Assembly (NCBI GenBank): GCA_905221605.1
Contig: CAJNDS010002374.1
Span: 310,001 to 374,000, forward strand
Reading direction: 5' to 3'
DNA length: 64,000 nt
DNA from: Symbiodinium natans
Taxonomy: Eukaryota > Sar > Dinophyceae > Suessiales > Symbiodiniaceae
Translations under genes and position numbers: made by a program
Notes under the pieces: generated by a model
What the model was told of the DNA's origin: nothing
Databases searched by the model: none
What the model saw: only the letters and a program-made list of their open reading frames with translations
Shown here: in pieces, positions 853 through 51,355 of the stretch
How the letters are laid out: each line of letters begins with the position of its first letter
Numbering within the stretch: position 1 is the stretch's first letter

Positions 853-3800
853 GAGCGTTGAACTTGGGCGGTGCGTCGGTGCGCAGGACCAGGAGCCGGT
901 CCACGCAGGCCTCTGGGGCTTTGCCCGCAGCGCGCGGCTGGAGGAGCGGGAGAAGGGGCAAACCGACATCATTGCAAGGCACCGCGCGGGTAGGCCACAA
1001 AGACACAACAACGGAACACGCACATGGCGCAGGAGCCGGAGAGATTGCGCGTGGCTTGCTTGGATCTGGATTTGGATTCCGAGCCTCTGGAAGCCATCGA
1101 CGTGGCCCTCGCTCAACTGCCAGCGGCCCTAGCGGTTGACTTCAGAGAGCATATGTTGATGCGAAAACAAGCTCAGCTCACGTGTTTTTCTCCATGCGAC
1201 CCGTGCCTCCATTCCCCCCCAAAACCCGCTCCTCCTCCTCTTCCTCCCGAGGTCCAAAGATGCCTCCCGTGAAGAGGACCGGGGCAGTGACGGGGCACAA
1301 GAGTTCCCCGTGTGTTTTTATGCTCTGCACATGCCGGGAGGAGCTGTCTTGGCGGGCTGGAGAGGCCGAGTCTGAGACCGGGAAGGGGCGGGCCAAGGGG
1401 TTTCGTGCCGTGGACCAAAGAAGCACCCATATACGGCCCTTCGACTTTCGAACCAGAGGCCTTGGGGCGTCGACTGGCGCGGAGCGAGCTCCATGCCCGG
1501 ACCCCACTGCGCCTGAACATGCCGGCGCGCGGAGCCCTGCCCGGGGCCCCAGCGTTGTCCAAAGCTGTCGCATACACGGCATGCACAAAAACATTTCAGC
1601 CCGCTCTTCCAGGACGGGGCTGCGCCCCGTGCCTCTCAGCACGAAGCCGCCCCTGCACCTGGGCGCCGCGCTGCTCCGCGTCCGGGCCGTGGGCCTGCGC
1701 CCCGTTCGGATAGGGCCTGGGTGAGGTGCTACTAGCAGGAAGCGCTCTCTCCGCTCTCTCACATCGTTTCTGCTCCCCCGCTCTCTCCTCTCGTCAGTCG
1801 GGCCAGTGCGTTGAACCAGGTCTCAACTTCCGGGATGTCCTCAATGCCAGCGGCCGTGTTGCGTTTGCAGTGGCTTCTTTTTGATGCGAGGGTGTGAGAC
1901 AGAGACAGTGGAAAGCCTGGTGAGGTCATGGGCCTGTATCCAGGAGACCCCCAACCGGGCGATGGGTGTGGGTGTCCGGCCAGCCTTTTTCTGCTAGCAC
2001 GCACATTTTTCCCCCGCTCCTCATGGAATTGGTTGTGGATTTCGGAGTGGTCGCAGCGCTCGGTTCAGTTCGTCTTGATCAGGAGATCCTGGGCCTCCAG
2101 GAGCAGACGTGGGAGGCACCGTGCTGGACCTCGCCGAGCACACGGGGAGCCACCTCAGGCAACGTGCGTGTGTGCGTGAGTGCGTGAATATGTGCGGGCA
2201 TGATTCGTGTTTTTTGGAGGCTCACGGAGGAGGTCTTCGGCGAGGCCCCGGGATGCTTGAGCAGCTACTGCCTGGCGCCCGCGCGGCGCGCTGAGCTTCC
2301 AACACAGAAGTGCACTCTTCAGGGCTCGGAAGTGTAGGGGATAGTGCAGTGGCTGTCAGGATGGGCCGTTTTACTTCGTCTTGCTTGGCCTGCCTTTCAT
2401 GCGGTTGTTCCTATTCATCGTTGCGATCATTACTCTTCAACTCGAACATTCATCATGTTGCCATATTGTCTCTGGTCAAAGAAACTGGATCTTTCCACTT
2501 GTTGTTTTTTGGCCTCCGGGCTGTTCCATGAGGCCGCTACTGGCGCCCAAGCCCCCGAGCTGGTCCTTCGAAGAGGTGATCCCTAATTCTGGACCTCTTC
2601 TCCTCTCTCTTGGTTTAGTGTTGGGAGTCAGCTCTGTCTCCCTCTTCCTGTCCCTTCGGAGAGAGGCCTGCGCCATGCCCGTGATCTTCGTGACCGTGGA
2701 GGAGGCCCTCGGGGACCTGGCGCGGCTGAAGCGCGGCGAGCGGGTCCGGGGGCCCAGAAGGGGAGACAGAAAGGAAGGGAACAAAAGGTGACCAAAAAAA
2801 GAAGGAGAGGCGAGACTTATACATATACGCATAAATGCATATATGTATCAGGGAGACGGGCTAGTTTTTTGTTTGCTTGGTTTTTCTTTGCCGTGAGGTC
2901 CTGATCCATGCCGCTGCCGGCGGCGTGGGCTTGGTCGCGATCCAGTATGCGCAGCATGTGGGGGCAGAGGTCTACGCGACAGCCGGTTCGGAGGTACGAG
3001 TAGGCAAATTTGTTGACAGCCCACCCAATACAGTCCTGCTTCTTTCTGTGCCTGTGTGCCGTGACTTGGGACAGGCGAAGCACGAGTATCTGCGCAGCAT
3101 CGGGGTGAAGCACATCACCAGTAGCCGCAGCGGGGCGCGCTTCGAGGAGGAGATGAGGAGCTTCCTGGACAAGGAGAGGGGCGGGTGCCAGGCTTCAAAT
3201 GGCTTTCAACCGAATTTCAACCAGCTGCGTTTTTGACGCACGGCGTTTCGCAGGAAGGAGTTGACGGGATCGACGTGGTGCTCAACAGCCTCAGTGCTTT
3301 GTTGTCAATCTGTCAAATTGTGTCTCTTCGGGTGCTTGCGATTCGGCTTGTTGGTTGGACTCCGGTACCCCCTTCTCGAGCCTTTGGAGTCTGGAAACAA
3401 TCAACTGACCACACTCCTCATATCATCAGAGCTGAGGCCACGATGACTACATCCCACGCTCGCTGGCGCTCTTGCGGAGCGGCGGCCGCTTCATCGAGAT
3501 CGGGAAGCGGGGCATCTGGTCCCACCAGCTCATCCCTGAGAGCGGCTCCAAGTAATGAACTCAGAAAGCGGGTCCCGGCCGCGTTGGGCCGAGGCAGATG
3601 TGGGAGAGCCGCCCGGATGTGATGTACGAGAAGATTGCCGCAGACACCATGATGGAGAAGGCTCAGCCGTTTTGGGAGAGAGAGATTGCATTCTGTGACT
3701 AGAGAAGTTGACTTCACGCAGTTCTCATAAAATGAGAGTCGACCCCACATGCTCCCGCTCCCCACTCGAACAATTGGCTGCTTGAGCCGCCCTTTGGGCT

Positions 3801-6800
3801 CCGCTGCTCAGGAGCCCTGGAGGCCGGGGGGGGGGGGCTTTGTCTGTTGCTTTGGAGGCTTGGGAGGCTTCGCATAGCTGTGCTCTCTTTGTTCAGCTGC
3901 TGCTTCCACTGCTGAGGATACTCCCAAATCCCAAAGGTGTCCAAAGCTCTCTGAAGGTTCGGGATGAGAGGAGGTATTATAAGCGACACAGGGTAGGACG
4001 AACAACGACAAGACTCATCTCGCATCGGGAGTGGCTGTCAATGTTGGCCAACCTTGAGCACCAGGGGTGGGGAGGCACAAGATGATCACACAGCAACACA
4101 TCGAGTTTCGAGTCCGTTTCGTCGGATCGGCACGCCAAATCTCGGATGCAGACCTCCACAATCAAAGAGCACATGCGAATGCAGAGGGTGGACAGGGCAG
4201 GAGAGCATGTCGGAGCAGAAAGTCCCCGGAAGAGGTACAACTCCTACTTGACGCGCTTGAAAGACCGCGTGGATGCTGGCGGGCTCAAGCCCATCCACAT
4301 GCACGTCTTTGAAGGCCTGGAGGAAGGCGCGGGGCCAAGAGTCCGTCTGAAACAGCAGAAGAGAGCAGCGCAGGGAAGCGGGAGAGTGAGACTAAACGCA
4401 AAGTGCCTCAAAGCATCTCGAATCTCAGAGAGGTGTCCGAGCTCTGCAATTCCTCCAGCGGGCACAGAACATCGGCAAAGTGGTGCTCTCGGAGCGCGGC
4501 ACCCATATGCTCCATCGGTATGTCTCTCGATGAGAGAAAGAGAGACCGCTTTTCCAAAACGAATGCAAAAGCTTGCTTCAAGTCTGGTCGGACGCGAGAA
4601 GCTGAGGCCGAGCAAGCTGCCGGCTGAGGGCACGCACGTCCTCAGTGGTGGCACGGGCGCCTTGGGTGTGGCCAGGGCCTCTGAGTGGCCTTCGCCTTTC
4701 TCTGTGCTGACCTTCAAGGTTGTTTTTTTGGCCTCTCGCTTTTGTTTTTTCTTGCCCTTCTCTCCAGCACATTCTGACAAGTGCCCAATCTTTGTTTCTC
4801 GAGGTGACAGCTCAGTTCCTTGCAGAGGAAGGGGCCAAGTCCCTCTGCCTTTTGTCGCGGGCGGGGCGCCCACCGGAAGAGGCGGGGGGAGGAGCTCAGA
4901 CGGCGAGCTCAGACCAAGCTCAGACTAAGCTCAGTGAGTCGCGGAGAGAGCCCATACTCTCAGATCGCACACTAAAAGAGCAGATTCCCGGAAGGTGCAG
5001 GCACGATGGGACTGGCTGCAGGCAAGACCTTGAGATGCACTTTCCCGTGGGGGGGAGAAGTTGCCTTTGTGTGTTTTGCTCTCCTTTTATCGCACACCCT
5101 GGAGAGGCGAGCACCGTGGACCTGCAAGTCCTTCGCTGCGACGTCTCCGAGGAAGCCTCCGTGAGCTCCGCGAAAGTCCTGAAAGGCCGCGCCGCCCTTC
5201 TTGCGCCCTTCTTGCGCCCACCTGCCAAAGCTGCTCGCGCCGAGGCCCCGTCGCTTCGCTCTTTCACTTGGCCGGAGCATTGGCCGATGCGATGCTGCCT
5301 GCCCTGGACCATGAGATGTTCCGGAAGTGCGGGGCGCAGTGCGCGAAGCAACACGAAGCAACGTGTTCAAGGAAGCCTGTGCAACGCAATGTGCTTGAGA
5401 GCTCCACGGAAGCTTCAGAGGTCGTATGGCCCCAAAGTCCATGGCCTGCGGCACCTGCTACGCCACCTCATCGGGGCCCGCACCCTCGCTCTTCGAGATT
5501 CTTCTCTCTCTCTCTCTCCTTCCTCTCTTTCTTTCTCTTCCTGCGCTCGTTCAAGGACTCGGCGCAGCTGGTGCTCTTCTCCTCCACCAGCTCGCTCTTC
5601 GGCGCTCCAGGCCATGACTTTCCAGCTGAGGCCCAAGAGGCTGTGGCAAGATGGGGGCGCTCGCCAGGCCAGGGCAACTATGCCGCAGCCAACAGCACCC
5701 TCGACGCCTTTGCGGCCTTCGCAGACAGCCCGAGTAGAGGCCGAGGGGTTTAAGCCAGAGACAGCTCAAGTCCGGCTCCTGTCGAAGCATCACGGTTGTC
5801 AGATCCAGTCCTCTGCAGCCTACACGGCCGCCTAGGTAGGAAAAAGCGCACCTCAAGATCTCAAGACAGGCCCAGATACACGAAGTTTTAAAAGGAAACG
5901 CGCTAGGTCACCGGGGCTCCCCTTCCTGATGCCCAGTCCTCCCTTTGGGTGCCAATCTTTAAGTCTTTGTTTGTATCTCTCAATACACTGACCCCCGAAG
6001 TTCGATGAACCTCAAACTCTCCAACCCTAAGCTGGGGGTTTCGTGACGCCATGGCGAGCGAAGCTGTGCAGCCGTTGAAGTCCGACAAGCCCGAGGTGGC
6101 CAGTTTCCCTCGACAGTTTGGGGGGTTCTTTCTTCACCGGTGGAATTTTGTTTCGGCGCCAGTTTCCTCAGCAGTTTTTAGCACGCTTAATCTTGTTTTT
6201 GGGCGTTCATGCCTCGGGTTCTTGGTGTTTTTTTTTGCAAGGCGCACGCCCTGCATGTACTCCAATGGTTTTGGAACGTGGCCTTACATCAACATCAGGA
6301 CGCCCAAAGCATTCCCTTAGCACTTTTGTGTTTCTCTTTCAGGTGGTGGGATGCGACGGTTCATCTGGTTCAGCCGATCACGACTCGGAGGCCTCGCCAC
6401 GGCCAAATTCAGCAAATACATCGCGAAGGAAGTCCAGGTATGATAAGAAGCTCGGCTTTGGATTGTTCTGTGTGGTTTCTGCTTCCTCCTCTATTCCCCC
6501 GGACCTAAACCATCAACTCCATGAACATTCCTGCCTCCCCACTGCCTCCAGCTGCCTCCCATTTGACCCTTAAAGGGTCTCGAAAAGGCTTGAACTTGAG
6601 TGGCGGTAGCAGGGGGAGGGGGGGGGGGGAAGGAGGGGGGGAGGTGGGCTTGCCAAGGACAGTGAGCTGCTGCCAAGAAAGTCTTGACAAGGCATCGCGC
6701 TGCTGCCAGACCCTTCCTCAGTTGATCGCAGCCTCGCTTGGAGCGGTGGTGGTCACCGGTTGCTCCATGCTACCAGGTCTGCTCATGCTTCTTGGCAGGG

Positions 6801-9800
6801 AGCAGGGAAGTAAGAAAGCGCTGCATTTTCGTGGCTTTCAAATTGAATGGGTCTAACAAAAAGTAAGTAAAGAAGGAACAAATGTAGTGTGTACATATAT
6901 GCTCCCCCAATGACATTGGTCCTCAGTCGTGTCGGCAAAAGGCAGGAGGAGGACCATGAGCAGCATTTCTGATTGGGTGGGATTGCTCTTCGAGGAATAG
7001 CGGATATCTGCTCACAGTCTTGTCGGATGTCGATGGTCTCTCTGTGCCGGGCTTGCACCATTCTAGAACTGCACTCCGAGCATGGCCCGGCTTCTGGGTT
7101 GCGCACTGAACGTTCCTGAGCTTACCTATGGAATGGATTTTGACAAGAACCCTGCAGAAGAAGAATGCATAAAGACCGAATAAAACGTTCCGGGCCTCCC
7201 TCCTGCTCATCTGCAGTAAGGGCTTTACGCCACAGACATCGCGTTCTCAAGAATCCTGTTCCAGTGGCTCGCCCCTATTAAAAAGTCATAGCCGTTGTCA
7301 TGCGAAGATGTTTGCTCTCTCAGGACTCAGGACGGTTCTAGAATCCTGTTCCGGCCAATTCCTGCTGCATGAAACAGGTTTTGTTTTTAGGCGGGCAGTT
7401 TGTCAGGAATTCCGGTCTGAGCCTTGGTCCGCATGAAACTTAACAAGGAATGTATCTTGAGGACAATTTCAGGAATCCGGCTCCTAGTTGATGTCTAATT
7501 ACGTCTTAACCAAGCCAACTCAAGTGTTTGCCATCTTTTGTCTGGCTTGGAAAGCCTGGTCATGTTACATGTGCTAGCAGCTGCTAGCAGGATTAATGAC
7601 AGCAATCCCTGTTTAGATGCATTTTGAAAAGCCGCTGGGCCACTGGGCCAACAGAACAGCACACCTGGCAATGCATCTAAAGGACCCCGGTATATTTTTC
7701 ATTTTGTTAACTAGATTTCAACCCAGAACTCCGAGAACCACTGCCAAGAGCCAAGAACGCAGATTCCAGGGAGTCTTGGTTCTTGGTTTTTGGTTCCCTG
7801 GGCCATGGGTTCAATCTTTTTTTTATTCAAATCACAAAAACTTAGCCGAGAGCCGAAAACCAAGAATTAAGACACCCTGTTCTTGGTTTAAACCTGCTCT
7901 TGGTTCCGGGGCCACGCTGAAAAAGTGCCTGAACGAGTTTAAAACATACTCTTCACTCAGGCCCCGGATGCCAAGAATCAGGATGTATGAGTTAAGGGAG
8001 ACGGACAAGCAGTCTAAAGCAAACCAACTATGCGCACAACAAATACGTGTAAGCTTTATAGTCTGCAATCACAAAGCCACATGACATGTTCAAATAACTA
8101 TTGGCGGATTTTTCTCACTATACTCACGCAGCCAACGTACCGGAGCGTGATCCATAGCATGCTGAAAGACGTCACTACGATGGAAGGCCTAGAGTCAAGA
8201 CAGACCAGTCTGGAATGAGCAACGCTTAACTTTTTATGGGAGGAGGAAATGAATATTGGCTAAAAGCAGCTTTATGAACAGAGATTAATTAGACCTCCCG
8301 TGGCCAAGCCGCTGAAGCTCATGATGCCGTTGCGTACGGGCGCATCATGAGCACCATCGTGGCATGTTGGGGGGGTTTGTGAGGAACACACCTTGAGGAG
8401 GAGGCGGGTTGGGGAAGTCTGTTGGCGTGGTGTTCTTTGGGTGGGGGGGTTGGGCGCATACCCGGGCGTGCGCTTGTTCAAGCTGAATCGAGGGTTTGGC
8501 ATGCACTTGCGCCGCGTCAATCTGAAACACTTACAGCAGGGCAGTGATGCTGGTCGAGGGGTGGGAGGGTTTGGGAAGGACATTTAAATTTGGGGGTGGA
8601 GGACGGGATGTTTGCCTTGCTCGTGCCAAGAAAGGACTTCACTGGTACCGACCAAATACGCGCTAAACCGCCGATCGCCATTTAAGTGTTCGAACGTTCG
8701 AGCGTCGCACCCCATCGCTCCTGTGTTGCTCGCTTTGTCATCGGGTGTTTCCCAATGCCTCAATAAAAACGTAGGGCGTGCAAAGCAGATCGCAACAACT
8801 TAGACAACCAGAAGACCCTACGCAAAAGTTCATCTTGAATTGTGGGCTTGGGAGCATCTAAAGGGTTTTTTTCAGAAACGGAAAGCAAAGAGCACACTTG
8901 TCAGAAAAAGGTTGCTGTGGCTCGTGCCGCTCACCATGGTGGTCAAGCCTGGCGGCGTGGAAAAGTACGTTGGTGCCATCAGTGCAGGCTTCATCGTTTT
9001 GGGCATTTTGGCTTCCACCATGGGACTTCAGTTCCCCGTGCTTGCTCTTGAATGGTTGACTATTAATGGAGAGACGTGGGACTTGGGCGACAACAAAAAG
9101 AAGTGGGAACACCGCTTCTTCAAGCAGCCTGACCAATCACGGCAAATAGGCGGCTTCCTCATACTCTTGCGAGCAGTGGCCAACGGAAGCACGTTGGTTT
9201 ATTCAGCATTTATCCTTCCGGAAAGGAACCCGGAGGAAAACTTGAACCTGTCGAAGTACCTCCTGGCCTGGCTGGAAGCTCCACTTGCTGGCTTAGGGGC
9301 CCTGGTCTGTCTCTATTACCTGCTCAAAATCTTCTGCAAGGAAGAGATGGATGCCGGGGACTGTGTCATGTTTGCCAAGTTCGTCCGACGGCTTGCCCGC
9401 TTTTCGGCTTTGTCGAGTTTGCCCTACGCCAACCCGGCTGTGTTGTGGGGCCAGCTCCAAGGCGGCATCGATGATTTTCATCTCCGCCTGCAAAAGCAGC
9501 GTGACATAGGAGATGAGGAATTCAAAGAGAACGGGAACAGGGTCCCTTCCAAGGACCTGTATTGGATCGAAATTCTCGGTCTGGGGTATGTGGTCTTCTC
9601 CCAGATGGCCTACATTGCCCTCTTTGCCTGTGCTGCGATTGGTTCCGTGGTAGTGAAGACATCACAGGTGAACTTCGTTTCTGCAAAAGCTTGGCACGAG
9701 TGGACGCCTGCCGAGCTCATTCAGCTCGCTTCGTTCATCAACGCCTTAAGCGGGCTCGGTCTGGATCCTAACCTGATAGGACTTGTAAAGGTGCTGCGAG

Positions 9801-11256
9801 AGCGGTATCCGGGAGAAGCCAAGAAGTTTGGGAAGTCCAAGGACGACGAGCTGGTGGATTGTTGGCAGGTCGCAGTCACCGATACTTTCATTAACGTCGA
9901 ACGGGCACAAAACGGGCACAACAAATTGCGCAGGTCGGCGATTGTTGTTGCCCTTTCGCTGGACCTCACTGATTGCTGCAACGTAATGAATGAGGGTGAA
10001 GAGGGAGATGAGGAGGCCGCTTGGCATGGTGCGCGTTCGAAGTCCGTGACTGTGAAGAGCCGCAACACGGAGTGAGGAGTGGGACGTGTTCGTACCATCG
10101 TAGGTGCCATTACAGTTTTGCTGGTCTACGTTCATCCGCCGCCTGCACATGCCAAGACGCTTGAGCAGCCCTTCCCTGATGCGCAGGGGGTTGGGATGAT
10201 ATATTTCTGGGACGGGCGGAAAGAAGGGGAAGCGCTGCTTGGGCAGATCTTTGGCACCAGCTGACCAAATTGGCCAGACTTGCATGCCGTTCCATTTTGC
10301 CATGTTTACCTTTCATCCTTGTCCAGAGGTTTTTCCCGCTGATGAGTTTTCCCGACACGCGATGCGTGACTTGGGAATGCCCAGCGTGAACTCGTCAACA
10401 AGAGCCAATACTCGTACCACGAGCACGAGACCACTGCCACTACCATTTATTACCATTGCCACTACCACCACCACCACCACTGCCACCACCACCACCACCA
10501 CCACCACTACTACCACTACGACCACTACGACACCACCACGACACCACCACGACACCACTACGACACCACTGCGACACCACTGCGACACTACACTATGACG
10601 ACTACTGCTGCTTCTACTTGAACTTCTACTTCTGCTTCTGCTTCTGCTTCTGCTTCTGCTTCTACTTCTATTGCTACTGCTACTTCTACTTCTACTTCTA
10701 CTTCTTCTACTACTACCACCACTACCACTACTAAGAAGCGTGGTGGTATTAGATGGGATGGTTTTCTTCATTTGAAACGCTTAAACGCATGTTTTTTGCT
10801 GCTTTGGGCACTTTCGGGGCGGGGTGGGGTCAATTCTCTCTTGTGTTGGAGATGCCAGGATTTTCCAATGCATCTTCTTTCACATGACTTGGCTTACATG
10901 ATACCAGCACATTCACTGCATCCCAGCATTTATTGGTCCCAGTATCCATGGCCGGGCAACGTCCATGTCGAACCGTGACATCCAAAGCTACATGTTGCTG
11001 AAATGACACACACATGCCAGGGTTTGCGACAACATGCAACATTCGAACCCCCCCCCCCCCTCAGGAAAGCATGTCCATGTTGCTGAATTGACACGCGTGG
11101 CAGTGTTTTCGACAACATGCAAAGTTTGATGCCCCCCCTCCTCCCCCCCCCCAGAAAGCATGTGCATGTTGCTGAAGTGACACGCCTGCCAGCGATTTCG
11201 ACCATAGTGATGCACATAAACACACCGTCATACCACCACTGCGCGTACTACTCCTC

Positions 11257-11293
<37 letters not shown>

Positions 11294-14200
11294 GACTACG
11301 ACTACGACGACTACGACTACGACTAGGACTAGGACTAGGACTAGGACTAGGACTACGACTACGACTACGACTACTACGACTACTACGACTACTACGACTA
11401 CGACTATTAGTATTGCTCGTACAATCAATCCCAGCTGAGCGGCAAGCATGACAAGCCAGAAGCCAGTGATGCCTGTCACGTTGGCAAGTACACCACCTCC
11501 CCTATGCACTTGTAGCTTAAAGTGGCTTACATGTGAAGAAGACTCAAGCTGCCAATTCGCTGCTCCGCACAGGTGCAGTGTCGGTGCAGTGGGGGCCATG
11601 GGCATGGCCCCGAGGAAGTTTTTGAGACTTCGAGACTTCCGCTGGAGTCACCATCCCTGTGAGGCCGAGGTAGGTATGGCGGTGCAGAAGGGCACCGTGC
11701 AGAGGGCCAAGGCCAGCGGCATCGGCGCCCTCAGCAACCCACAAGGCCCCTTTGCGTCTGAACAGCGCGCATCACATCGCCCCTCGTTTTTGTTTGTAGA
11801 CACTCTCTCTCTCTCCCTCTCTCTCTCTCTCTCTGCCTTCTCCCAGGTTTGGCAATCCTGGGCAGCGTCCTGCACCAAAGCGCCGGAAACCCATCGAAAC
11901 CCAACAGAACTCCCGATGCTCGGGCTGCCTAAGGTGTTTGCACACTCTGCACATGGGCTAAGGGGCCACGGCACTCGCTGGTGGGCGCAGCCCACGTCCG
12001 CTGGCCCAAGTTCCTGCGCACCGTGTTCAATGCCCGGAGCCCAAAACGCAGTGCCCAGAACGGGCTCCGAGGGCCATTTTGATCATCCCCCCCCAGCCCC
12101 CCGCCCCACCCCTGCGCTTGGCTCTTGCCTCGAGGCTGAGCCGCCGGCCTCCCTGCTGGACATGGCCGCCGAGGCAGCCAAATCCATGGAGACGGGATCC
12201 GCCGATGCAGGCGCCGGTGCCGAGAGATGCCCTTCGAAACCTTCGAAACGTGCCAAGCTATGCCAACTTGTGCCAATTGATGCTCCGTCATCACGTCATG
12301 ACATGGCTTTGCCGACCTTGAGGCAGCTGTCTCGAGGATCATGTTAGGTGTTGAGTTGACGTCTTCAACATTTAAGACAGGTGGTCTGAACCAGCAGACA
12401 ATCGTCTCGAGGATGCTGTCCAGACAATCTAGTAGGCAGTAAAGATAGTGTTCGCATCCGGCTCGCGGCCCTTTCATTCCGATAAATGTTGTCAAGGCAA
12501 ACCAGGCGGATCGGCTGATGTTCACGACAGTGCGAACGTCTGGTTCCGAAAGGGCCCACAACAACATCAACAACGTTTACAGCATCAAGGGTGCGATGAA
12601 AGCGTGTACGCAACATCCTTTCAAGCAGCTTGTATCAACACAGGGACCCACCCCTCCCGCTCCTTCCCCACCCCCCCCCTCTCCCCACAAAAAAAAGGGA
12701 GAAGGGCAAGGGTGGAGTGCGAGGTGTTTTGTATTTACTCTTGCTGTCTTTGAGAGTGCAGGGCTGGCGGTGGAGCTGGCGGCACTGGGCGCTGCCGAGC
12801 GCCAGGAGCGGTTGGAGCTGTTGGTGCGGAAGTTGGCCAGCGACGTCGTGGGCGAAGACCTACCGGGGGACGTGGAACTGCTGGAGCTCCGGGCTCAGAC
12901 CTTTGAGAACATGTCGAGAACATTTGAGTTAACCCCTTTCTCTGAGATTTCTGAGCGCATGCCGGCGCCGAAGCAGAAGAGAGAGTCCAGACTTTTGCGA
13001 AGGTCTGGCATGGACTCCTTGTCTGGTGTGGAATTCAGAAATAGGCTTCAGCAAGAGTGGAAGCCTCGGACTTCCCCGACAACCCACAGCATACGGAGAC
13101 ATGCACAATGCACGTGTTTGCATGCGGTTGGGTAGTTGCGCGATGGGGTTACCTGGGGCGCCTTGCGAACCTTGCAGGCTGGGTGGTGTTCGGCTGCCAA
13201 ATTCCGCGGTCTTTGACTTCCCGACGGCCCCGGGAGCAGTGCCAACACTGCTTTGAAGGGTCTCTGAGTCGCCGTGGGATCCACTGGCCCTTGAAGCGCT
13301 TTGTTTTCTTGCGCAAAAAGTCCGGGTTTCACCTGAGAGGCCAACGCGCTCGCGGGCTTCATTGCGGGCCAGTTGGGGGCGAGGCAAGTGTCCGAGGTGC
13401 CCTTCGCGTTCTGCGTGCTCCTTTGTTCATGCTGTCGGAACACATGCAAGACACGCTTCTTATGAAGTATAGCCGATATAACAGTATGCCAAGTGTTTGT
13501 CTTGCGTGCCTGTTCTCCCGTGGTACGGCCGCCTGCAGCGCAGGCACCACAACAGGCGCCGGCCGGGCAGTCCAAAATTCTGGAGCTGCTGAACACCAGG
13601 ATTCCAGATCAGTGTGTTTGTGCAGTGCGGGGAAGTGTGGGACTGTGTGGGGAGGTGACTTGTTGTAGCCTGCCGCAGCGCCAGGACGACTGGCCGGCCT
13701 CTCTTCCTGGTGCCCGGCGCTGGCCTGCAGGCCGTTCAGTCGCCATGATGTCAAACCTGCCCTCAGATCGAAGCGCGCGTTGATCGAGGCCGCCGGCTTC
13801 CAAGCCTTGGCATCCCTTCTGCCGGTGCCAACCTGGAGCGTCTCCTGGCCCCAAAACCTCCCGAGGGAGAGGCGGGGACGTGGTGAGACAGGGGACAGCG
13901 TGCGCTCCGGGTGACGCCATGTGCCCTCATGTGCCCTCTCTCGCAGCATGTGTGTCACGACTTCTTGTGGACCCCTGTGACCTTATGAGATGCCGTGGAG
14001 TCCATTTAACCTCAAAGCTTTTGGTGCCCAGCATGGGCAGCCCCCGCTGGCAAAAGGTGCTGAGGAGACGGCCATGGCTTCTCTGCAGCACGTGTGTGGC
14101 CCTCGCTGTCAGCGGCAAGGCCTTCACGGCCCAATCCCTCCGTAAGGAGGGCATGGCTTCTCATCCCACGGGCCCCACGGGTTTTGCAGGCCGCCGTGAC

Positions 14201-16918
14201 CTGGAGGTCTCCGTGCTCGCCGAGGCCGAGGGCACGGAGAGCGGTGCGTCTGTGGACGTGGCACTGGCCACTCCCGAGCGGTCCCGGGCCGTTCAAGTCT
14301 GGTCCGTCCTCGGTGTCGCCGCGTACCTGTCCTACGGCGTGAAGAAGGTGGTGCCCATCGTGCACCAGGGCCTCGCCAGCATCACTGCACCGTGGCAGTG
14401 GCTCCTGCTGGTGGCCACGACTCTCAGCCTGCTAATGAGAGCCTTTCTTTTATTGTAGGTGTCACATATAGATATGATGAACATACAAATAGAAATAGAA
14501 ATAGATGCATGAACTTGCACGAGCACAAAGACGCGCGCACAAGGTACAGAATGGTATACTCGTTCGTGAGGCAAAAGCAAAAAAAGACTCAGTCTGACGG
14601 AAGCCGAGGCTGGGGTTCTTTGGCTTCGTGGAGGGCTACCGGGGCTTTCAGCAGGGCTTCTGCCCGCGAGTCGTCAGCCGCGCCTGGGCCGTGTCGGAGA
14701 AGTTCCCAGAGGTCTCAACAAGGACTCCCGGAGACGAAAGCATGAGGGAAGAGTGAGGGAAGTAGGAGGCATTTCCGTTTGCACTTGGCCGTGAGCAGCT
14801 CTGAGCTGATACAGCACGTGTGTAGGCCAGGCACCTCAGTCTCCAAAGCTCTATTGGGCGAAACAGAGTCTTGAACCTGAGCATTCCTTGCAAGGGACCT
14901 GCTGAAGCGGAACGTGGCCCGTCTCATGGGGAAAGACGTGCCTGAAGCTCCAAGAGCCACAGCCACGCTGTTACACAAGCTTTTCGCCCCAGCATTCTGC
15001 ATTGGCTATTTTCATGGCACGCGAAAGCGCGTGATCTCCAGCTGGTGTGTTACCACCACCATCTTCTTCGTGGTCGTCTTTGTGCGCAAGCTGCCCAACC
15101 CCTACCGTGCCATCCTGGATGCCTGGAGCTTAAGCCCGATAGATTCTCCACGGATTCTCTAAAGATTCTCTACGTTTTCTCTATAGATTCACTATATAGA
15201 TGCACTGTAGATGCTTTGCAGGGTTCGTACGGATTCTGAGATTCTGCCAGATTCTTCTTGAGGCCGGCGTCATCGTCGGCCTGCTCTGGGGCACGGTGTC
15301 CGTCCTACTCCTCTTTGCCCGGTCACTCCGCGCGGGCAAGCCTCCCAACTTCGACCCTTGCTTGCCAGCTGACACGCCCTACCACCCTTGAACCTGCTCT
15401 GAGACCTTTAGTTTTATCAATCATATTCATATATTCGCAATATATTGTTATGAATATTGTTGCTGCTCAGAGAAGTTTTTGTTGGGAGCCGGGCAAGAGC
15501 CCGGGCTGCGGCAACCTCACAGACACTTCGCCGGCGAAAACTTGCCGAAGGTCGCGTGGAAAAAGGATAAAGGCTGGGCGTGGCAATCGCACGTGCCCAG
15601 TGCCACCCAGCTCACACGATATACAAGGATGGCATCAACAAGCCCAAGTCAAGGGGCAAAGTGAATGTGTCAGCTGGAAGGTGGCCAGATTCGTTGGAGG
15701 CCCTGGCGCAGTTGCTGCTGGCAGAGGCGCGGCCCAAGATCCGGCATCCTCGCAATGCTCTTTGCAAAAAGAAGTCAGAGCTTCAGTGTGGGGGGGGGGG
15801 GGCGCCTGTCTTGTTTGAGTCGCGAGGTCCGGGCCGTGGAGCCGACGAAGCCGCTGCTGCTGGCCGGGCATTCCTTTGGAGCCACCGTTTGCCTGGAGAT
15901 GGCCAGGCAGGCCGAGGCCTGGTGCGTGACACCCCAAACAAGCACCTCAAGCACTTCAATCTCCAAGCTTCAGGCCAGCAAGCCTCTGAACTCTTTCTTC
16001 AGAGCGACCAATGTGGAAGAAAGCTCCAATATAAAATAAAATAAAAGCAAAGAAAATCTCGAAGCTCCTGACGCTGCAGGGTCACTGACCGGGAACCAAC
16101 CGGCCGCGAAAGCTTATTCTTAACAACAAGACAAACTGTTCGGCAAAAACCCCTAATTTCTGAGCGCCCCTCGCCATGAGATGTGGACTCGGTGTGGATC
16201 TGGTCGTCTCCTGTAGCTCGTAAAGCTCCGTAGCTCGTGTTGGTTTCAGCAGGTCAGTATTTAGAAGAAAATCCTTTCGGAGGCATCGGGCCAAGCCGTG
16301 GCGTTGGTGGCGCTTCTGGACCCCAGGACGCTGCTCCCTTTGGAGGGTGATGCAGGCGCACAAGAAACGAAGCAGGGGATTTGGGAGCCGTCTGAGTCTC
16401 CAAATTCTGGGGCCACGCTGTGATTGTGGACTTAAGAGGCGATGTCTTTGAGAGCGGCCTGCTGGACACCCTGGCGATGCTGTCTCAAAGCGTTGCGGAC
16501 GGGGCGCGCTACGCCGCGGTTGTCGAGGACCATCTCGCACGCCAGGTTCATGCTCTCCTCGAAGGGGTGGGGTCTTTTTTTTGGGGCTGGGTCTTAGAAG
16601 ATGTCACAATTTCTGAGAGGAAGCTTTGGCCTCAACTTCCGACGATCCGGAAGCTTTGCGCCAGCTCCTAGGCCCGCTCACGGAGAGTGCCCGCACATGT
16701 CTGCCCCTTCTGTACAGAGCACTCACAACATGTTTCCCGGAGCAGCGGCAGGCCCCGCAGCCTCTGCGCTGGAGCACGTCCATGAAACTTTTCGGTGGTA
16801 CGCTGGGCTCCTGACCAATGCCCGCCATCGCCCCAGACTTCCCAATCCACTGAGGTTTGGTACAGCCGGGGATGCGGTGTGCGTGTGTGATCAATTAAGC
16901 TCAGTGTCTCTCGCTCTC

Positions 16919-18820: not shown

Positions 18821-19429
18821 CAGTCCTTCCCCCTTTCTGTTTGTTCTCCTATTTCCCCCCCCGCCCGCCCACTTCTGGCCCAGACTAGCCGTCTCGGCTC
18901 CACACCCCGCACCTGGCACACTTCTGTTCGTCTCCCAGCAAGCTTGTGCCCACCCTGACCGCAGTCGGGGGAGGTTGATTCTACGGGGCGTGCCCGCGTG
19001 CGTCGGGCCGCCCTCTCGCATAGTGCCTTCGAGCGAATGAGGTTGCTTAGTTGCCCGCTTGGAAGCCCCCTACCCGCGGATGTTAAGTATCCCAGCGGGG
19101 GTGAGAAATTCCGCCAGGAAAGCCTGCAGTCCTGGGCGACCTGCCAGCCTCAGTTCACGCCTCGCAGTGCCCATGTCCGCAGCCTTTGGTTCGCCTTCGT
19201 TTGTCTTTCTCGCTCTCATCCCGCTGTTGGACCCCTGCTGCCATGCGAGTGTTTCGAAACTTCCCTGGCCCTTCGACCTGGTGGCTGCGGCTCCATCTCG
19301 TGCCTTCGTCGAAGTATGCCTGGCTGTGGTCTTTCGCTCCACCGCTTTCGTTAATGCCTCTTGGTTGGCTCCTCTGCCCGCCGCTCTCCGCGTATGGGGA
19401 GTTTACTGCTGTGGTGCCGTCTGTCGCGC

Positions 19430-20142
19430 TTCCTCCCTCCCTCCCTTCCCTCCCTTCCCTCCCTTCCCTCCCTTCCCTCCCTTCCCTCCCTTCCCTCCCT
19501 TCCCTCCCTTCCCTCCCTTCCCTCCCCTCCCTTCCCTCCCTTCCCTCCCTTCCCTCCCTTCCCGCCCTTCCTCCCTTCCCTCCCTCCTTCCCTCCCTTCC
19601 CCTCCCTTCCCTCCCTTCCCGCTCCCTTCCCCCTCCCTTCCCTCTCCCTTCCCTCTCCCTTCCCTTCTCCCTGCCCTCTCCTTCCCTCTCCCTCGCCCTT
19701 CCTCTCCCTTCCCTCCCGTCCCTCCCTTTCCCTCCCTTTCCCCCTCCCTTCCCTCCCGTCCCCCTCCCTTCCCCCTCCCTTCCCCCCTCCCTTCCCTCTC
19801 CCCTTCCCTTCCCCTCCCTTCCCTTCCCCCTTCCCTCCCTCCCTTCCCTCCCTCCCCCTTCCCTTCCCTCCCTCCCTTTCCCTCCCTTCCCTCCCTTCCC
19901 GCCCTTCCCTCCCTCCCCCCTTCCTCTCCCTCCCTCCCGCCCTTGCCCTCCTTCCCTCCCCCCCTCCCTTCCCTCCTTCCCTCCCTCCCTTTCCCTCCTT
20001 CCCCCCTCCCTCCCTTCCCTCCCTTCCCTCCCTTCCCTCCCTTCCCTCCCTTCCCTCCCTTCCCTCCCTTCCCTCCCTTTCCCTCCCTTCCCTCCCTTCC
20101 CTCCCTTCCCTCCCTTCCCTCCCTTCCCTCCCTTCCTCCCTT
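19430..20142. repeat. 0.7-kb homopyrimidine tract, (CCCTT)n/(CCCTTCCCTC)n
   Basis: Almost only C and T on the + strand, with very few G. The unit is mainly CCCTTCCCTC, with degenerate centre and regular ends. All reading frames are open and give Pro/Ser/Leu/Phe low-complexity peptides, which are artefacts. Such tracts can form triplex (H-DNA) structures. Confidence 0.9.
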
Positions 20143-20829
20143 GATGCGGCACTCTACCCAGGGCAGGGCTCCAAGATGTTTTCGCATGCTTTTGTCAATC
20201 CGACTGCAGAGCCCTGCGCAGGACGAAGTTGGGGCGTGAGAGGCTGAGGCGACCTTGGAAGCCAGTTTGATATCAGAAAAAGTGAGAAGAAGTGAAGAAG
20301 TGAGGAGAAGCGAAGTGGATTTTAAGTCGACCTGTCGTTGTTACGTGCCTGAAGACCGGGCTCTCGGCCCGGCTCGGCCGTTCCTCCTCTCCGTTCTCGT
20401 GCTCGCAAGCCGCAAGAAGCTCGTGCCTCGAATCTCGAAATTGCGGCCACCTGAGCCGTAGAGTTGCACAGAGCGCAGACAGTCCTCTGGGCTGCGCTTA
20501 GAAGGCGCTCCCGGAGGAGTCATCCGTTTTCCGTAATTCGAAGATAGGGAGACGTGCTGGCAAGAGATGGACAAAGGGGGGGAGATGGGAGGGCTGCGCG
20601 ATTGGCCTTTCTGAGAATGGAGATGCGACTCAGAACTGACTGCACACTGAGCCGCTTTAGTGACCTGTCGGAGTTTAGAAGCGGACGGTATTGTCGTATT
20701 GTTGTTGCACAATGCCCGGGGAAGTCCCCACTTGCCACTTGCCACGTGCTATATTCACTCCCACATACAGAGCCCTGTATGGGGAGAAGCTCCTTGTAGC
20801 TCTGAGCGCACTGTTTTTGCAGCGGTTCT

Positions 20830-32579: not shown

Positions 32580-32945
32580 AGGCGTTTGACACCGAACCCC
32601 CCCCCAACCCTTAAGACTAAACCCCACCCCTCGGTCCTAAAACCCCTGAACCCCCTAAATGCCCCTAAACCCCAACCACCTAAACCCCTAAAACTCGAGT
32701 GGCCTGGCCTGGCGCTGCACTCGAATGGTGTCTAGCGTTATTTTTTCTCCTGAATTTAGGGCTGGTCCTTCTGCCTTTTTTCCTAAAGATATTAGCGAAT
32801 CTTGACGACTATGAACAAATCAACAACACCTGGAAATGTTTATACCATATTGCCAAAGTATTCACAACATCGTGAAAATAGTGAAAAAGATTAGCAGTAT
32901 TTTGATGGTTCTTTTCAATAGAAATAGTGTAAAATATTAGCAAAT
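32580..32945 (+). repeat. AT-rich dispersed element with CCCTAAA-like repeats (left copy)
   Basis: Degenerate CCTAAACCCC repeats (32605-32690) are followed by CTCGAGTGGCCTGGCCTGGC, then TATTTTTTCTCCTGAATT and an AT-rich tail with ATTAGC/ATTCACAA phrases. The reverse complement of the same order of motifs occurs at 36990-37430. Confidence 0.7.
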
Positions 32946-33315
32946 TGTTTCGCAAGGTCCAACCGAGACCGTGCAGACGCTTTGAGCCAGCGCAGTCCGG
33001 AGAAGAAAAGAGAGGGAGAGGAAACGAGACAGAGAAAGAGAGAGAGAGAGAGAGACAGAGCCGGACAGAGCAGCGGGCCAGCGTGGCCGGGGTCCTCTTC
33101 GGGGGGCCTCTTCGCTGGGCAGAAGAAGAAGAGACAGAGCCCCTGGGGGCGGCCTCCCTTCGGGGGGGGTCATGCGTGGGGGAGAGAGAGAGAGAGAGAG
33201 AGACAGAGAGACTTGTACGAGCTCACGTCGGGGGCTGCGACGTTCAAGGGGTTCGGGGTTTTCGGGGAAATGTCCGGTCAGTTTCAGTTGTCAATCTCTG
33301 TCGTTTCTGTGTCAC

Positions 33316-33448
33316 GAAGAGGAAGAGGAAGAGGAAGAGGAAGAGGAAGAGGAAGAGGAAGAGGAAGAGGAAGAGGAAGAGGAAGAGGAAGAGGAAGAGG
33401 AAGAGGAAGAGGAAGAGGAAGAGGAAGAGGAAGAGGAAGAGGAAGAGG
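33316..33448. repeat. (GAAGAG)n hexanucleotide repeat
   Basis: About 22 copies of GAAGAG. The Glu/Arg-rich and Phe/Leu-rich open frames through this and the next tract are low-complexity artefacts. Confidence 0.92.
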
Positions 33449-33469
33449 GGACGCTGGTGCTGCAGCCGT

Positions 33470-33694
33470 TTCTTGGAGGAGCGAGGAGCGAGGGGCGAGG
33501 GGCCAGGAGCGAGGGGCGAGGGGCGAGGGGCGAGGAGCGAGGAGCGAGGGCGAGCGAGAGGAGAGAGGGGAACGCGGAGAGAGAGGAGAGAGAGGAGAGA
33601 GAGGAGAGAGAGGAGAGAGAGGAGAGAGAGGAGAGAGAGGAGAGAGAGGAGAGAGAGGAGAGAGAGGAGAGAGAGGAGAGAGGAGAGAGAAGAG

Positions 33695-33727
<33 letters not shown>

Positions 33728-33738
33728 GAGAGAGATGC

Positions 33739-33772
<34 letters not shown>

Positions 33773-33819
33773 GAGAGAGAGGAGGAGAGAGAGAGGAGAG
33801 AGAGAGGAGAGCGAGAGAG

Positions 33820-33851
<32 letters not shown>

Positions 33852-33932
33852 GAGAGGAGAGAGAGAGAGAGAGGAGAGAGAGAGGAGAGAGAGAGGAGCG
33901 AGAGAGGAGAGAGAGAGGGAGAGAGAGGAGAG

Positions 33933-33965
<33 letters not shown>

Positions 33966-34153
33966 GAGAGAGGGGAGAGAGAGAGAGGGAGAGAGAGAGG
34001 AGAGAGAGAGGGAGAGAGAGGGGAGAGAGAGGGGAGAGAGAGGGGAGAGAGAGGGGAGAGAAAGGGGAGAGAGAGAGGAGAGAGAGAGGAGAGAGAGGAG
34101 AGAGAGGAGAGAGAGGATAGAGAGGAGAGAGGGGAGAGGGGAGAGGGGAGAGA
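33470..34153. repeat. Homopurine tract, (GAGAGAGGA)n and related
   Basis: About 0.7 kb that is almost pure A and G on the + strand, built from GAGAGAGGA, GAGCGAGG and GGGAGAGA units. It is the purine counterpart of the pyrimidine tract at 19430-20142. Confidence 0.9.
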
Positions 34154-34159
34154 ATGCAT

Positions 34160-34910
34160 ACAGTGCCGATGCCTTTGCGCCTTGCAAGCCGGAGAACTGG
34201 CCAGGACCGCATCTGGGTCTTGGTTGAAAGAATAAACACTTTTTGACAAAACCTTGGGTACAAGTTTGCAAAGTAGTGATTTTTCAAAAACAAGTGCCAA
34301 CAGCAGCAGCTTCCGGAGCAGCCACAGCGGCGACAACGCCTTTCGCTTCCCGGGCTGCGGTGGCGATGGACCAACCCATTGAGCCTGATGTCCGAGGGCC
34401 CGGCACAGGAGGGCGAAACAGCGCGAGCGACAGCGACCGCAACAGAGCGACTTGACGACTGGAGGCTGAGCGTGGAGAACTTCGCCTTCTTTGTCCATGA
34501 GCCCGGGCATCAGAACTGGCCTCACACGCCTTGCCCTGGCTGCCTCAGGATACCGGATTAAAAGCGCCGTGCTGCGCAGGTTTTGTTGCGCTGGAGCACG
34601 AAAGTAAAGGTCGCTTTTTAGTCTTGGAATCTTGGAGTAGAATACGTTCGGAAGCGAACTGGATCAGTTGCGTTGGCTGGGCGCCATCACTGTTTGAGCT
34701 CATGTTTGCACTCTCGCAGTAGCTGCGCAGGCTTGCTTGATTGGATGTTCGATGCAGCGTTTCGCAGAAACATGCTGAAAGAGATCACAACATGTTGCAA
34801 TGGAGAGAAAATCCAGACAATCACACTCAAGCCTCGGCAGACTTAATCCAGCTAAGGGCAGCTGATGAAGGCGCTCTTCTGCGGTTGCGAGCAGCCACTG
34901 CAGCAGCTAC
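34160..34910. other. Spacer between the purine tract and the CAG repeat
   Basis: A codon-like phrase near 34456-34510 (DDWRLSVENFAFFVHEPG) may be an isolated exon, but it cannot be linked to a family or to neighbouring exons. Confidence 0.3.
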
Positions 34911-39644: not shown

Positions 39645-42037
39645 ATGGCGAGCGGACGCAGGCCACGGCATGCCCGCGTGTGAGAACTTAACAGCAGCTC
39701 TTAAGGAGAGCACTTCGAAGAACCTTCAAGGAAGCGGACCGTTAGAGTGACTTGAGGGCGAGGAGCCTGCTGGCAGCATTGGTTCTGCTGGTCGCTGCGC
39801 CAGGACCCTAATCGGTTCAAGTTTCTTTTTCCTTGACAGAGCTGTCGGTGAGTCAGCTCTTGCTGGAAATTGGTGCGAGCCCAAAACGCCCTTGGAGAAG
39901 CTGAAAGAGCGCTCCCAAGTCTCTTTCCCAAGGGCCTGCCTCTGGAGATGGACGTTTGCTGATGCATTCGTCGCTCCCCAGATCGGCAGCCGAGCCCCCC
40001 GCGGCACCTTGCCAGCAGAGAGACATGCGCGATGTGGAAAAAACGACGTGCAGTTCGCCTGCGCGGCAAATGCAGATGCATATGGAAGCCTTTCTAAGGT
40101 CCTGTCCGCACGGCCCGCTTCGCCAGTGACAGCGGAGCCGAGGCGCGCCACATCCGCAACACGCATTTTGTTGCCACGTAAAATGAAGCGAGATGGGACA
40201 AAGAGACCGTCAAGTCCAGGACTCAGTCGAAATCTCGGGCTTCTCCGGCTTTGTGGTGGGCCTTGCGTTCCTGCCGTACACCTGCTACGCACTCCTGACG
40301 GCCGTCAACATCGTGAGGCTGGGACCGGACGCAGCTGCAAGCTTCTGCGACTCAACTCTACTTTTAAACTCTACTTAAAGTTCCAATTTCCTTCTACATC
40401 TTGCAAACTGTGTCCTTCAGAGCGGGTCCTTTCTCGGATCGTGTTTTTGTAACTCGCGCTCTCAAGGGGGGAGAGCGTCCCAACCTTCGGCTTCGAGCTG
40501 CTCTCCGGTGTGGTGTCCCTTGGTCACAACCTCAGAGCCTTTCAGAGCCTCCGACGGGAGATGTTGAGACAGTTGACAAGCACATGCAAAAAAATGTGAA
40601 AAACAAAGCAAAACAACAACCATATGGGTTGCGAATTTGTTGTGCCATTCAGGCCTGGTGGCCTGGTCGCTGGGCAGCTTTCTCCAGCGTGGCCGAGGAC
40701 AAAAACGGGAGACAGACACTGATAAGACGGAGGAAGACGTTCTCTTGCAGAGAGGGTGTCGCTGTGTCGCCAGGCCTGCCGGCTGGGCCCCTGGGATTGC
40801 TGGGCCTGTCGGAGGGCCTCTCCTACCTGGCCGCGCCTCGCTCTGTGAGATCAAGTGTGCTTGGTCCTGTGATCGTGACGGGATGGGGGCGGGCAGTTCC
40901 GTGCTCTTTCCTAGCGAACGAAGCTCAGAACATTTCAGAACTGTTGGAACGTTTCGTGTCCGTGTATGTGTGTGGGTGGCTGAGCATTGGTGCAAGTTCA
41001 CATAAAGGTGGCAGCATGCAGCAGCGCAACAATATGCATACTTGTACAGTACTTATACATATTCATTATTTTCCCATGAACCAGGCGCTGGGCCTTCTCT
41101 TAGCCACGGCCGCGGCCGGGCTGCGTTCAGGCAGAAGTTTGAGCCGCGATGGTGTGAAGTTTGTGCCGCCTGCAAAGCCTTCAGGACCTTCGCTGCCCAA
41201 GATCAGCATGCCCAATGTCGAGATACCCAAAGTCAGCCTGCCTGCAGCGCCGTCACTTCCGAAGGTACAGAGAAGTGTTGCTCGTGGTGTCGCATGTGAA
41301 AGACACATTCAATGAAGTGTTTTGTTCAGGGAGTGGAGATGCCTTCCTTGAAGGTGCGGCTTCTTTTTTTTTTTTTTTTTTTGGGGGGGGGGGTCATATG
41401 TTGGGGCTGACTTTGTGTGGGTTTTGCCTCTCGGATGGTCTCTTCCGTGCGCGTCTTCAGTGCACAAGAATCAGCAGGAGACGCACCCCCCAAAAGGTGC
41501 CTGACATGAAGCTGGGGGACCTCAAGTCCAAGCTGCCGGACATCAAGGTCCCGGACATCAAGGTCCCGGACATCAAGGTGCCAGACATCAAGGTCCCAGA
41601 CGTGAAGGTGCCAGACGTGAAGCTGCCAGAGGCTGGGAGATCTCTAGGCCAAAGATCAGAGTGCACCATACAGCGCTTCCACGCGAAGAGAGGTGAAAGT
41701 TCCAGAAGTAAGCCTCCCGAAGACAGAGGCAAAGAAGGAGACAAAGAAGGCGGCACTTCGGGTTCCGAACCGTTTCTTTTCCGAGAAGTGTCTCAGTGGG
41801 ATCCCATCGTTGCAATTAAGTCACAAGGTTTTCGGCACAGAAGTCCTTGCCATCAGCAATTGATCTTCGTGGGGAGCACCCGCCCCACCCCCAACGCTCG
41901 TGCCTTCACATGTCAGGAGGCCCCGCCTCCTCCGCCTCCTGCGCCCAAGAAAGCCGAGGCAGCTCCTACGGGTCAAAATCTGGCAAGTTGGCCTTCTCAT
42001 CCTCTCACCCCCTCCTTCTCTGCGATTCTTGCTTTGC

Positions 42038-42073
<36 letters not shown>

Positions 42074-42078
42074 GCCCG

Positions 42079-42133
<55 letters not shown>

Positions 42134-42175
42134 GAGGCCAAGTCATCGTCGGATATGGCAGATCTCTTTGCCTGA
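39645..42175 (+). CDS. Probable plastid membrane protein with K-V-P-D-I/V repeat tail
   Basis: ATG 39645 (MASGRRPRHARV) is followed in a later exon by the signal-peptide-like core RSLLAALVLLVAAP (about 39760), and then by ADAFVAPQIGSRAPRG (about 39960). The FVAP motif is typical of dinoflagellate plastid transit peptides. Membrane-like exons follow: GFSGFVVGLAFLPYTCYALL (about 40235), GLPAGPLGLLGLSEGLSYLA (about 40778) and ALGLLLATAAAGL (about 41085). The tail begins PSLPKISMPNVEIPKVSLP. It continues as a tandem pentapeptide series of KVPDI or KVPDV units (41494-41630), then KVPEVSLPKTEAKKETKKAA, a Pro-rich exon (APPPPPPAPKKAEAAPTG, about 41920) and KSSSDMADLFA with stop TGA 42173-42175. Function is unknown. 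The repeat tail resembles the DIKVP-type repeats of AHNAK proteins in pattern only. Exon joins are inferred. Confidence 0.68.
42046..42132. repeat. (CT)n tract before the last exon
   Basis: A CT run broken by a short CGCCCG segment. It ends in TTTCGAG directly before the final exon at about 42136, so it is a polypyrimidine tract made of microsatellite. Confidence 0.85.
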
Positions 42176-42414
42176 GGGCCTGGTCTCATGTCATCAGTTT
42201 CTCAATTTTACTATTCGGAGAGTCAAGTCAGGAACAGCTGGAACAGCGTGAGTGGAGAACGGGGAAGAGCATGGGAGAGCACTGAACTGTTGGTAGGGAT
42301 GTCGGCAGCTGATTCTGTGCAAATCTTGTGCATGTGCGCAAAACGTAGTGCTCAAGTTCAGCGGGAAAGCCCACCCGCTTTTCACACACGGCGACGTGGA
42401 GAGCTTCGTGATGA

Positions 42415-50368: not shown

Positions 50369-51355
50369 GTTTGAAGTCGTTTGAAGTCGTCTGAATGCCT
50401 TGAAGAGCAGGGCAAACGCGACTGATGGTGTTTGGAAGTTCTCCTGTTTAGCTCAAGTTCATGCACTTGTTCGAGTTCTCTCTGAGCCGCCGACAAGCCA
50501 TTGGGACAATGCCTTGGGCTCTCCAGCACCAGCAAGGGCTGCGATGTACAGGACACGGCTGGACACTGCCCAAGTCGGATTCCCCGGATGCTTGCGAAGT
50601 CAAACAGGGCTGTGCACAAGAAACCGTTGTCAATTTCCGAGAGTCCAGACTGATAGTTGTTTTTTTCTTCAATCTGTCAACGCCGCCGTTCATTGCGCCT
50701 GTTTTCGTCGATCTAGTCCTCACGAGTTGAGAATGACCGCACCGTGGCTGAATTTCCACATGCCAACAGCAGAAGCACGCATGTTTTTTCTTGATCATGG
50801 TGCAACATTTCCAACAGAAGCGAGGGAGGGCCGTCGCAATGGAGCTCGAGTCGCTGGACTCGTTTCTCGAGCCACCTGCCTTTGCTTGCTGCGCGCTTGA
50901 GTCACTGGAAAGTTTTTTGGCTCCTGTCTGGAGCCCAGCAGCCACGACAAGAAGGCATGTTCGTTCATGATTGTTCGTGATCTCGCCTCACAGGTGCAGT
51001 CCTTGGAGGATTTCCTCTCTGCAGAGGTGTGGAATTTCGTGGTATGTGAAGCTGCTCCTGCTTGCTCGGCGCTTCTGACGTGGCAGGTTCCACCTTGGAA
51101 GCAAGATCCTTCCGACCTGTGCGCATACTTGGATGCCTACATGATGGCGGAGCGGCCGGTGCCTTGCTGTGAGCAGCCCCGTTTGAGCGGCCTAGGACGG
51201 GTGTCTTGAAGGCAGGCAACGACTGACTGTTTGATCCGTCGCGTGCATTGCGTGATGCAGGTGCAGCCCTTAGAGGATTTCTTGTCCAATAACGAGGCAC
51301 CGAGAAAGCAGCCCGAACACGACTTTGAAGCCATTCATTCCTTTCCCCTTGACAG
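50369..51355. other. Spacer, or 5' exons of the peptidase gene
   Basis: Two codon-like phrases follow CAG acceptors, VQSLEDFLSAEVWNFV (about 50996) and VPPWKQDPSDLCAYLDAYMM (about 51088). A third, VQPLEDFLS (about 51260), resembles the first and hints at a duplicated exon. They may be the N-terminal part of the next gene; this is not certain. Confidence 0.35.

Follow-up and report, generated by a model that had tools for sequence, protein, structure and literature searches.

Nested genes, retrogenes and introners in dinoflagellates

Genes that sit within the introns of other genes are already known in dinoflagellates. In the accessible part of a report on Polarella glacialis, they number 4,898 (8.4%) and 3,359 (6.5%) in two isolates, with full-length transcript support (PMC7245778). 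Here we describe a good example of this arrangement, not a new phenomenon, in a 64,000-nucleotide (nt) stretch of a Symbiodinium natans contig (CAJNDS010002374.1, positions 310,001 to 374,000; C2062:310001-374000 in our numbering), hereafter the window, taken from an assembly of 759 Mb in 2,543 contigs. As read from the sequence, a 5.8-kb intron that splits the ketoreductase (KR) domain of a multi-exon polyketide synthase (PKS) gene holds, on the same strand, a complete and conserved single-exon gene whose product is probably a membrane protein. The likeness to P. glacialis is that of a gene in the intron of a longer gene; compared with what the accessible text of that report describes, the host here is a PKS ketoreductase, the nested family is a different one, the case is known from sequence alone, and the 5.8-kb intron is shorter than the 10 kb required by their gene combiner (PMC7245778). 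A literature search found no dinoflagellate single-exon gene nested in a PKS intron, other wordings for the PKS host not having been tried.

Dinoflagellates reportedly also carry retrogenes tagged with the dinoflagellate spliced leader (DinoSL), described by Slamovits and Keeling in 2008, and introns derived from introners are said to have been described in them by Roy et al. in 2023. The nested gene resembles DinoSL-tagged retrogenes in being an intronless copy with intron-bearing relatives, and it differs from them in having no relic leader, which defines such genes in the accessible part of one report (PMC12014239). Active introners are reported in the available portion of a review of the Symbiodiniaceae (PMC11453091). 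Two points of likeness link the present locus to introner-derived introns: the introns in the nested gene's relatives are separate ones, and the intron of one paralogue (L010, described below) has AG before each border. The differences are that no introner element was identified here and that the relatives in other genomes were judged from proteins, not from intron DNA.

A ketoreductase domain split by a predicted 5.8-kb intron

An earlier sequence-only reading had proposed that a KR active-site block near 5676 and a KR C-terminal block ending at 11601 belong to one domain, with an intron between them and a gene inside it. We located both motifs at those places, NYAAAN at 5676-5693 and WGPW at 11590-11601; all PKS pieces and introns given in this section lie on the + strand. 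The exon carrying NYAAAN (5668-5739) matches positions 142-162 of the KR profile PF08659 (E = 2e-07; 31.5 bits, above the cut-off of 22.6) and PKS chains in the PDB (best E = 0.002). Profile, active-site YAAAN block and PDB matches together identify a type I PKS ketoreductase. The KR C-terminal exon, which is short, had no match in the PDB when searched alone. The distance between the two motifs was measured against solved PKS structures, which we retrieved with a generic KR motif. Both motifs aligned with zero net length change in 36 of 42 PDB sequences, the other six being off by 1 to 6 residues; the alignments of the best five of the 42 were inspected. In one structure, 3slk, 21 residues separate the two motifs, and AEHGMA follows.

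Removal of a predicted GC-AG intron of 5,833 nt (5740-11572; AGAG|GCCGAG ... CACAG|GTGCAG) would leave the same 21 residues between NYAAAN and WGPW. The interval proposed earlier, 5730 to 11573, thus holds as a predicted intron, with its borders refined. Among 33 stop-free, in-frame combinations of donor and acceptor in the window, linkers ranged from 4 to 35 residues. Eight of these gave 20 to 22 residues (donors at 5737 or 5743, for instance, would give 20 or 22), and two gave exactly 21, namely 5740/11573 and 5706/11539. The former retains LDAFA, which matches PKS chains, and the latter drops DAFA. Spacing alone is no proof, and we prefer the borders at 5740-11572 because the 21-residue spacing and the conserved residues coincide there. 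Downstream of the intron comes an exon of 29 nt (11573-11601), which holds the KR block ending in WGPW with a spacing like that of 3slk. Such a length is very short for a coding exon, and the flanking introns are of 5,833 and 62 nt. The second of these (11602-11663; GC-AG, borders read from the sequence) leads to the KR C-terminal exon (11664-11756, 3' limit approximate), which opens with AEVGMA, the counterpart of AEHGMA in 3slk.

All four introns that could be placed by KR spacing have putative GC-AG borders, the other two being 4671-4803 (borders read from the sequence) and 5611-5667. GC or GA donors make up 25 to 74% in Symbiodiniaceae, according to the accessible portion of the review (PMC11453091). 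A Pfam profile search of the window found the PKS pieces in the order enoylreductase, KR, carrier and thioesterase. The enoylreductase piece (ADH_zinc_N, 2922-3002) matches PF00107 at E = 5.8e-07 and 30 bits, just below the curated cut-off of 31.8. The KR N-terminal block, GGTGALG, was read from the sequence in an exon (4633-4670) that ends at the GC donor 4671, and the next KR exon (4804-4887, the 3' limit being that of the match) corresponds to PF08659 positions 15-42 (E = 3.8e-04; 20.9 bits, below 22.6). Farther downstream, the same PKS continues with what is probably its acyl-carrier piece (12995-13069), with a weak match to PF00550 (E = 0.044; 14.5 bits, below 20.8), and a thioesterase piece (15824-15934; PF00975, E = 7.8e-07; 30 bits, above 26.4). 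Hence the enoylreductase, first KR and carrier matches fall below their cut-offs, and the second KR and thioesterase matches lie above. With spacing, conserved residues, domain order and GC-AG borders in agreement, the view that the exons on either side of 5740-11572 form one KR domain of one gene, with a same-strand gene between them, is well supported at the level of sequence.

Ten stop-free frames of the intron compared with Pfam for a second nested gene or transposon gave best E values of 0.051 and 0.076, shorter frames not having been tested. At E <= 1e-3 the intron shared no repeat with the remainder of the window, matches being confined to the intron itself, and scans of the 64-kb window with Rfam (at gathering score) and for tRNAs returned no matches. 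Microsatellites lie at 10.4-10.7 and 11.2-11.4 kb. Near the 3' end of the intron, at 10991-11202, imperfect direct repeats with C-runs recur every 83 to 89 bases, and a short TCAAGAATCCTGTTCC-like sequence recurs three times at 7247-7484.

The nested gene and its product

The stop-free frame inside the intron runs from 8804 to 10075, or 423 codons. In 300 dinucleotide shuffles of 5740-11572, the longest + strand frame averaged 156 codons and reached at most 358. Because the frame is longer than any in the shuffled sequences and has homologues, it is not a product of chance, and on these sequence grounds we treat it as a real gene. Its third codon positions have a guanine-plus-cytosine (GC) content of 0.65, whereas that of the intron around it is 0.508. 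The complete open reading frame (ORF) of 411 codons from 8840 that had been proposed holds as a frame, though not in its start: 8840 is a TTG codon, and the first in-frame ATG, at 8936, gives a gene of 379 codons (8936-10075, + strand). The window's own protein in the database, P0001, also starts at this methionine. Two homologues begin 4 to 5 codons upstream of it, P0012 with MPLTM and P0002 with MTPLVM, where the window reads GTG CCG CTC ACC ATG.

Hydropathy, with about four hydrophobic stretches, points to a probable membrane protein. No Pfam family matched the 411-residue version at E <= 1, NCBIfam gave a sub-threshold match only (12.2 bits against a cut-off of 45), and a PDB profile search of the protein returned three chance-level matches (E = 0.85 to 0.98). 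A structure model was too poor for a fold search, with a mean predicted local distance difference test (pLDDT) score of 45.6. The 64-kb window holds no second copy, other matches having E values of 0.21 or worse. Searches with peptide patterns confirmed no relatives in viral contigs or in bacterial and archaeal genomes.

Introns in relatives of the nested gene

Besides the window's own entry, we found 12 homologous database proteins or fragments with 35 to 62% identity, all of them gene predictions on contigs. A search of the same genome with the window protein listed nine places, including a paralogue, L010 (C1852), and six more distant ones, L004 to L009. The sequence-only reading had called for an intron-bearing relative, and L010 is one. 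Its two exons correspond to P0012 and P0013 (100 and 99.5% identity) and are 60 and 68% identical to the nested protein. The intron between them, as placed by reading frame, is 77 nt long with GC-AG borders (CAG|GCCGCT...ACTGAG|GTCTTG). The distant paralogues share 27 to 40% identity with the nested protein over 100 to 200 residues and have open frames of 299 to 496 residues. Five of the six (L004, L005, L007, L008 and L009) cross the L010 intron place unbroken, and L006 ends near it; the loop at this place is shorter in the distant paralogues. Because five of six are unbroken there, the intron was probably gained in the L010 copy. L004 to L009 also point to a larger family, of which the window member has no Pfam name.

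Relatives in other genomes appear to be interrupted at a different place. The window reads on without a break through AAG GTG at 9788-9793 (+ strand), which encodes the junction GLVK|V. P0004, P0005 and P0006 end at GLVKVR, P0003 leaves the alignment at GLVK|V, and P0009, P0010 and P0011 start at or just before KVLRERY, a pattern that suggests an intron at this junction. The junction is intact in the window copy, in L010 and in P0002, and P0008 crosses it as well. No P0002-like place was among the nine own-genome places listed with the window protein as query. In trees of two core regions, from which P0009 to P0011 were left out, the split copies cluster with ultrafast bootstrap values of 99 (P0003 to P0007) and 98 (P0003 to P0006, with P0008 inside). 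On these comparisons it looks likelier that introns were gained in the relatives than that they were lost from the window copy. The most likely reason for the intronless state of the nested copy would then be an ancestral family with no breaks at the sites that carry introns in its relatives today, and on this view retroposition is not required.

How the two messages may be separated

The host genome is that of a trans-splicing dinoflagellate, as had been supposed: the 21-nt DinoSL occurs in 205 exact copies in the 759-Mb genome (104 forward and 101 reverse), against 0 for a reversed control. A candidate acceptor for the leader, seven T residues followed by CAG, lies at 8866-8875 on the + strand and is the single match to this pattern in the window on either strand. 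If it is used, the mRNA body of the nested gene would start at 8876, 60 nt ahead of the ATG. The leader could be added there either to the PKS pre-mRNA or to the nested gene's own transcript, and cis-splicing from 5739 to 11573 would remove the nested gene from the PKS message. An acceptor-like TTTTGCTCTTTAG likewise precedes the ATG of L010 by about 36 nt. A fusion of PKS and nested protein is unlikely because cis-splicing from 5739 to 8876 would put the nested ORF out of frame (phase 1 versus 0). The T7-CAG site is an ordinary candidate answer to the separation of the two messages.

We also considered competition between this acceptor and the PKS splice for a single pre-mRNA. Leader addition at 8876 would sever the PKS transcript, and any one primary transcript would then give rise to PKS or to membrane protein, but not to both. 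Such competition, which we consider highly improbable, would provide the locus with a switch from one product to the other.

Weighing the explanations

We assign a probability of roughly 0.7 to a multi-exon PKS gene whose 5.8-kb GC-AG intron in the KR domain holds a complete, same-strand, single-exon gene of unbroken ancestry, with no need for retroposition. The weaker of the two origins for the nested gene is that of a processed retrocopy, as the sequence-only reading had suggested: the spliced mRNA of an intron-bearing parent would have been reverse-transcribed and inserted in the PKS intron, and leader relic and A-tail would have disappeared afterwards. That the nested copy has no intron, that its own genome contains a paralogue with one and that relatives elsewhere seem to be split too are all consistent with this, and dinoflagellate retrogenes are common (6,544 in 37 of 43 species, in the accessible part of PMC12014239). 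However, searches for spliced-leader relics upstream of 8840 with both the core and the full leader found none. The 15-nt DinoSL core, with up to 3 mismatches, matched once in the whole window, at 50443, against 3.0 matches expected, and nowhere near the ORF; its best match was 10/15 in 5740-8936 and 8/15 in 8400-8936, and the full DinoSL is absent from the window. Nor is there a remnant of an A-tail: neither 8000-8936 nor 10076-11572 contains six or more consecutive A residues, and upstream there are only two runs of A5. An old retrocopy could have shed both marks. Still, identity to the paralogue is only 60 to 68%, and five of the six distant paralogues read straight through the site of its intron, which makes a retroposed origin unlikely.

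Other explanations concern the host gene itself. The two KR halves could come from different PKS genes, or the PKS could be dead, and the ORF would then be an ordinary gene lying between the halves. Dinoflagellates commonly have single-domain PKS genes, and the single pieces here score weakly, three of the five Pfam matches falling below the curated cut-off. We nevertheless find this quite unlikely, as KR spacing and conserved residues carry on across an intron with GC-AG borders, and AEVGMA follows WGPW past the next short intron much as AEHGMA does in 3slk. An assembly artefact, in which an unrelated piece of lower GC content was joined into the PKS gene, would account for the drop in GC content from 0.584 in the PKS flanks to 0.508 in those parts of the intron that lie outside the ORF. 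Assemblies often break at microsatellites, and the intron has the two tracts noted above. Even so, the edges of the supposed insert coincide with splice borders that preserve both the frame and the spacing of the KR domain, and we judge an artefact very unlikely.

Several findings weigh against the nested gene of unbroken ancestry that we prefer. The GC difference could also come from a foreign insert or a chimeric contig. The intron at GLVK|V is deduced from protein predictions and not from DNA; P0007 is already out of frame ahead of the junction, and P0008, which crosses it, comes from a contig of 1,426 bases that is possibly a cDNA. The distant paralogues leave the order of events at GLVK|V unsettled, in that two of six (L004 and L009) cross to recognisable C-terminal parts, three lose alignment shortly after it and L006 stops before it. 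As for the acceptor, the T7-CAG pattern was chosen post hoc, which makes its uniqueness look weightier than it is, and a less strict pyrimidine search (10 Y, 0 to 3 N, CAG) gives 31 overlapping + strand positions, with the T7-CAG site not among them. Finally, it is doubtful that the nested message is released from the PKS transcript, since, according to one review, dinoflagellates now seem to make limited use of polycistronic transcription (PMC5029490).

With these points in view, the locus offers a clean, testable case of a gene nested on the strand of its host where messages are trans-spliced. The acceptor candidate is sharp, and the genome also contains both a paralogue with an intron and distant ones that are unbroken. 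The locus bears on how nested messages are released. It also bears on whether intronless dinoflagellate genes are retrocopies or never gained introns, the latter seeming likelier for the nested family.

Other features of the window

Long simple-sequence tracts at 19041-20340 and 32928-34663 are open in many frames on both strands, and such ORFs are not genes. At 40368-42285, + strand frames contain a repeated VPDIKVPDIKVPDVKLP motif with a LPKISMPNVEIPKVSLP stretch upstream, possibly exons of one repeat-rich protein.

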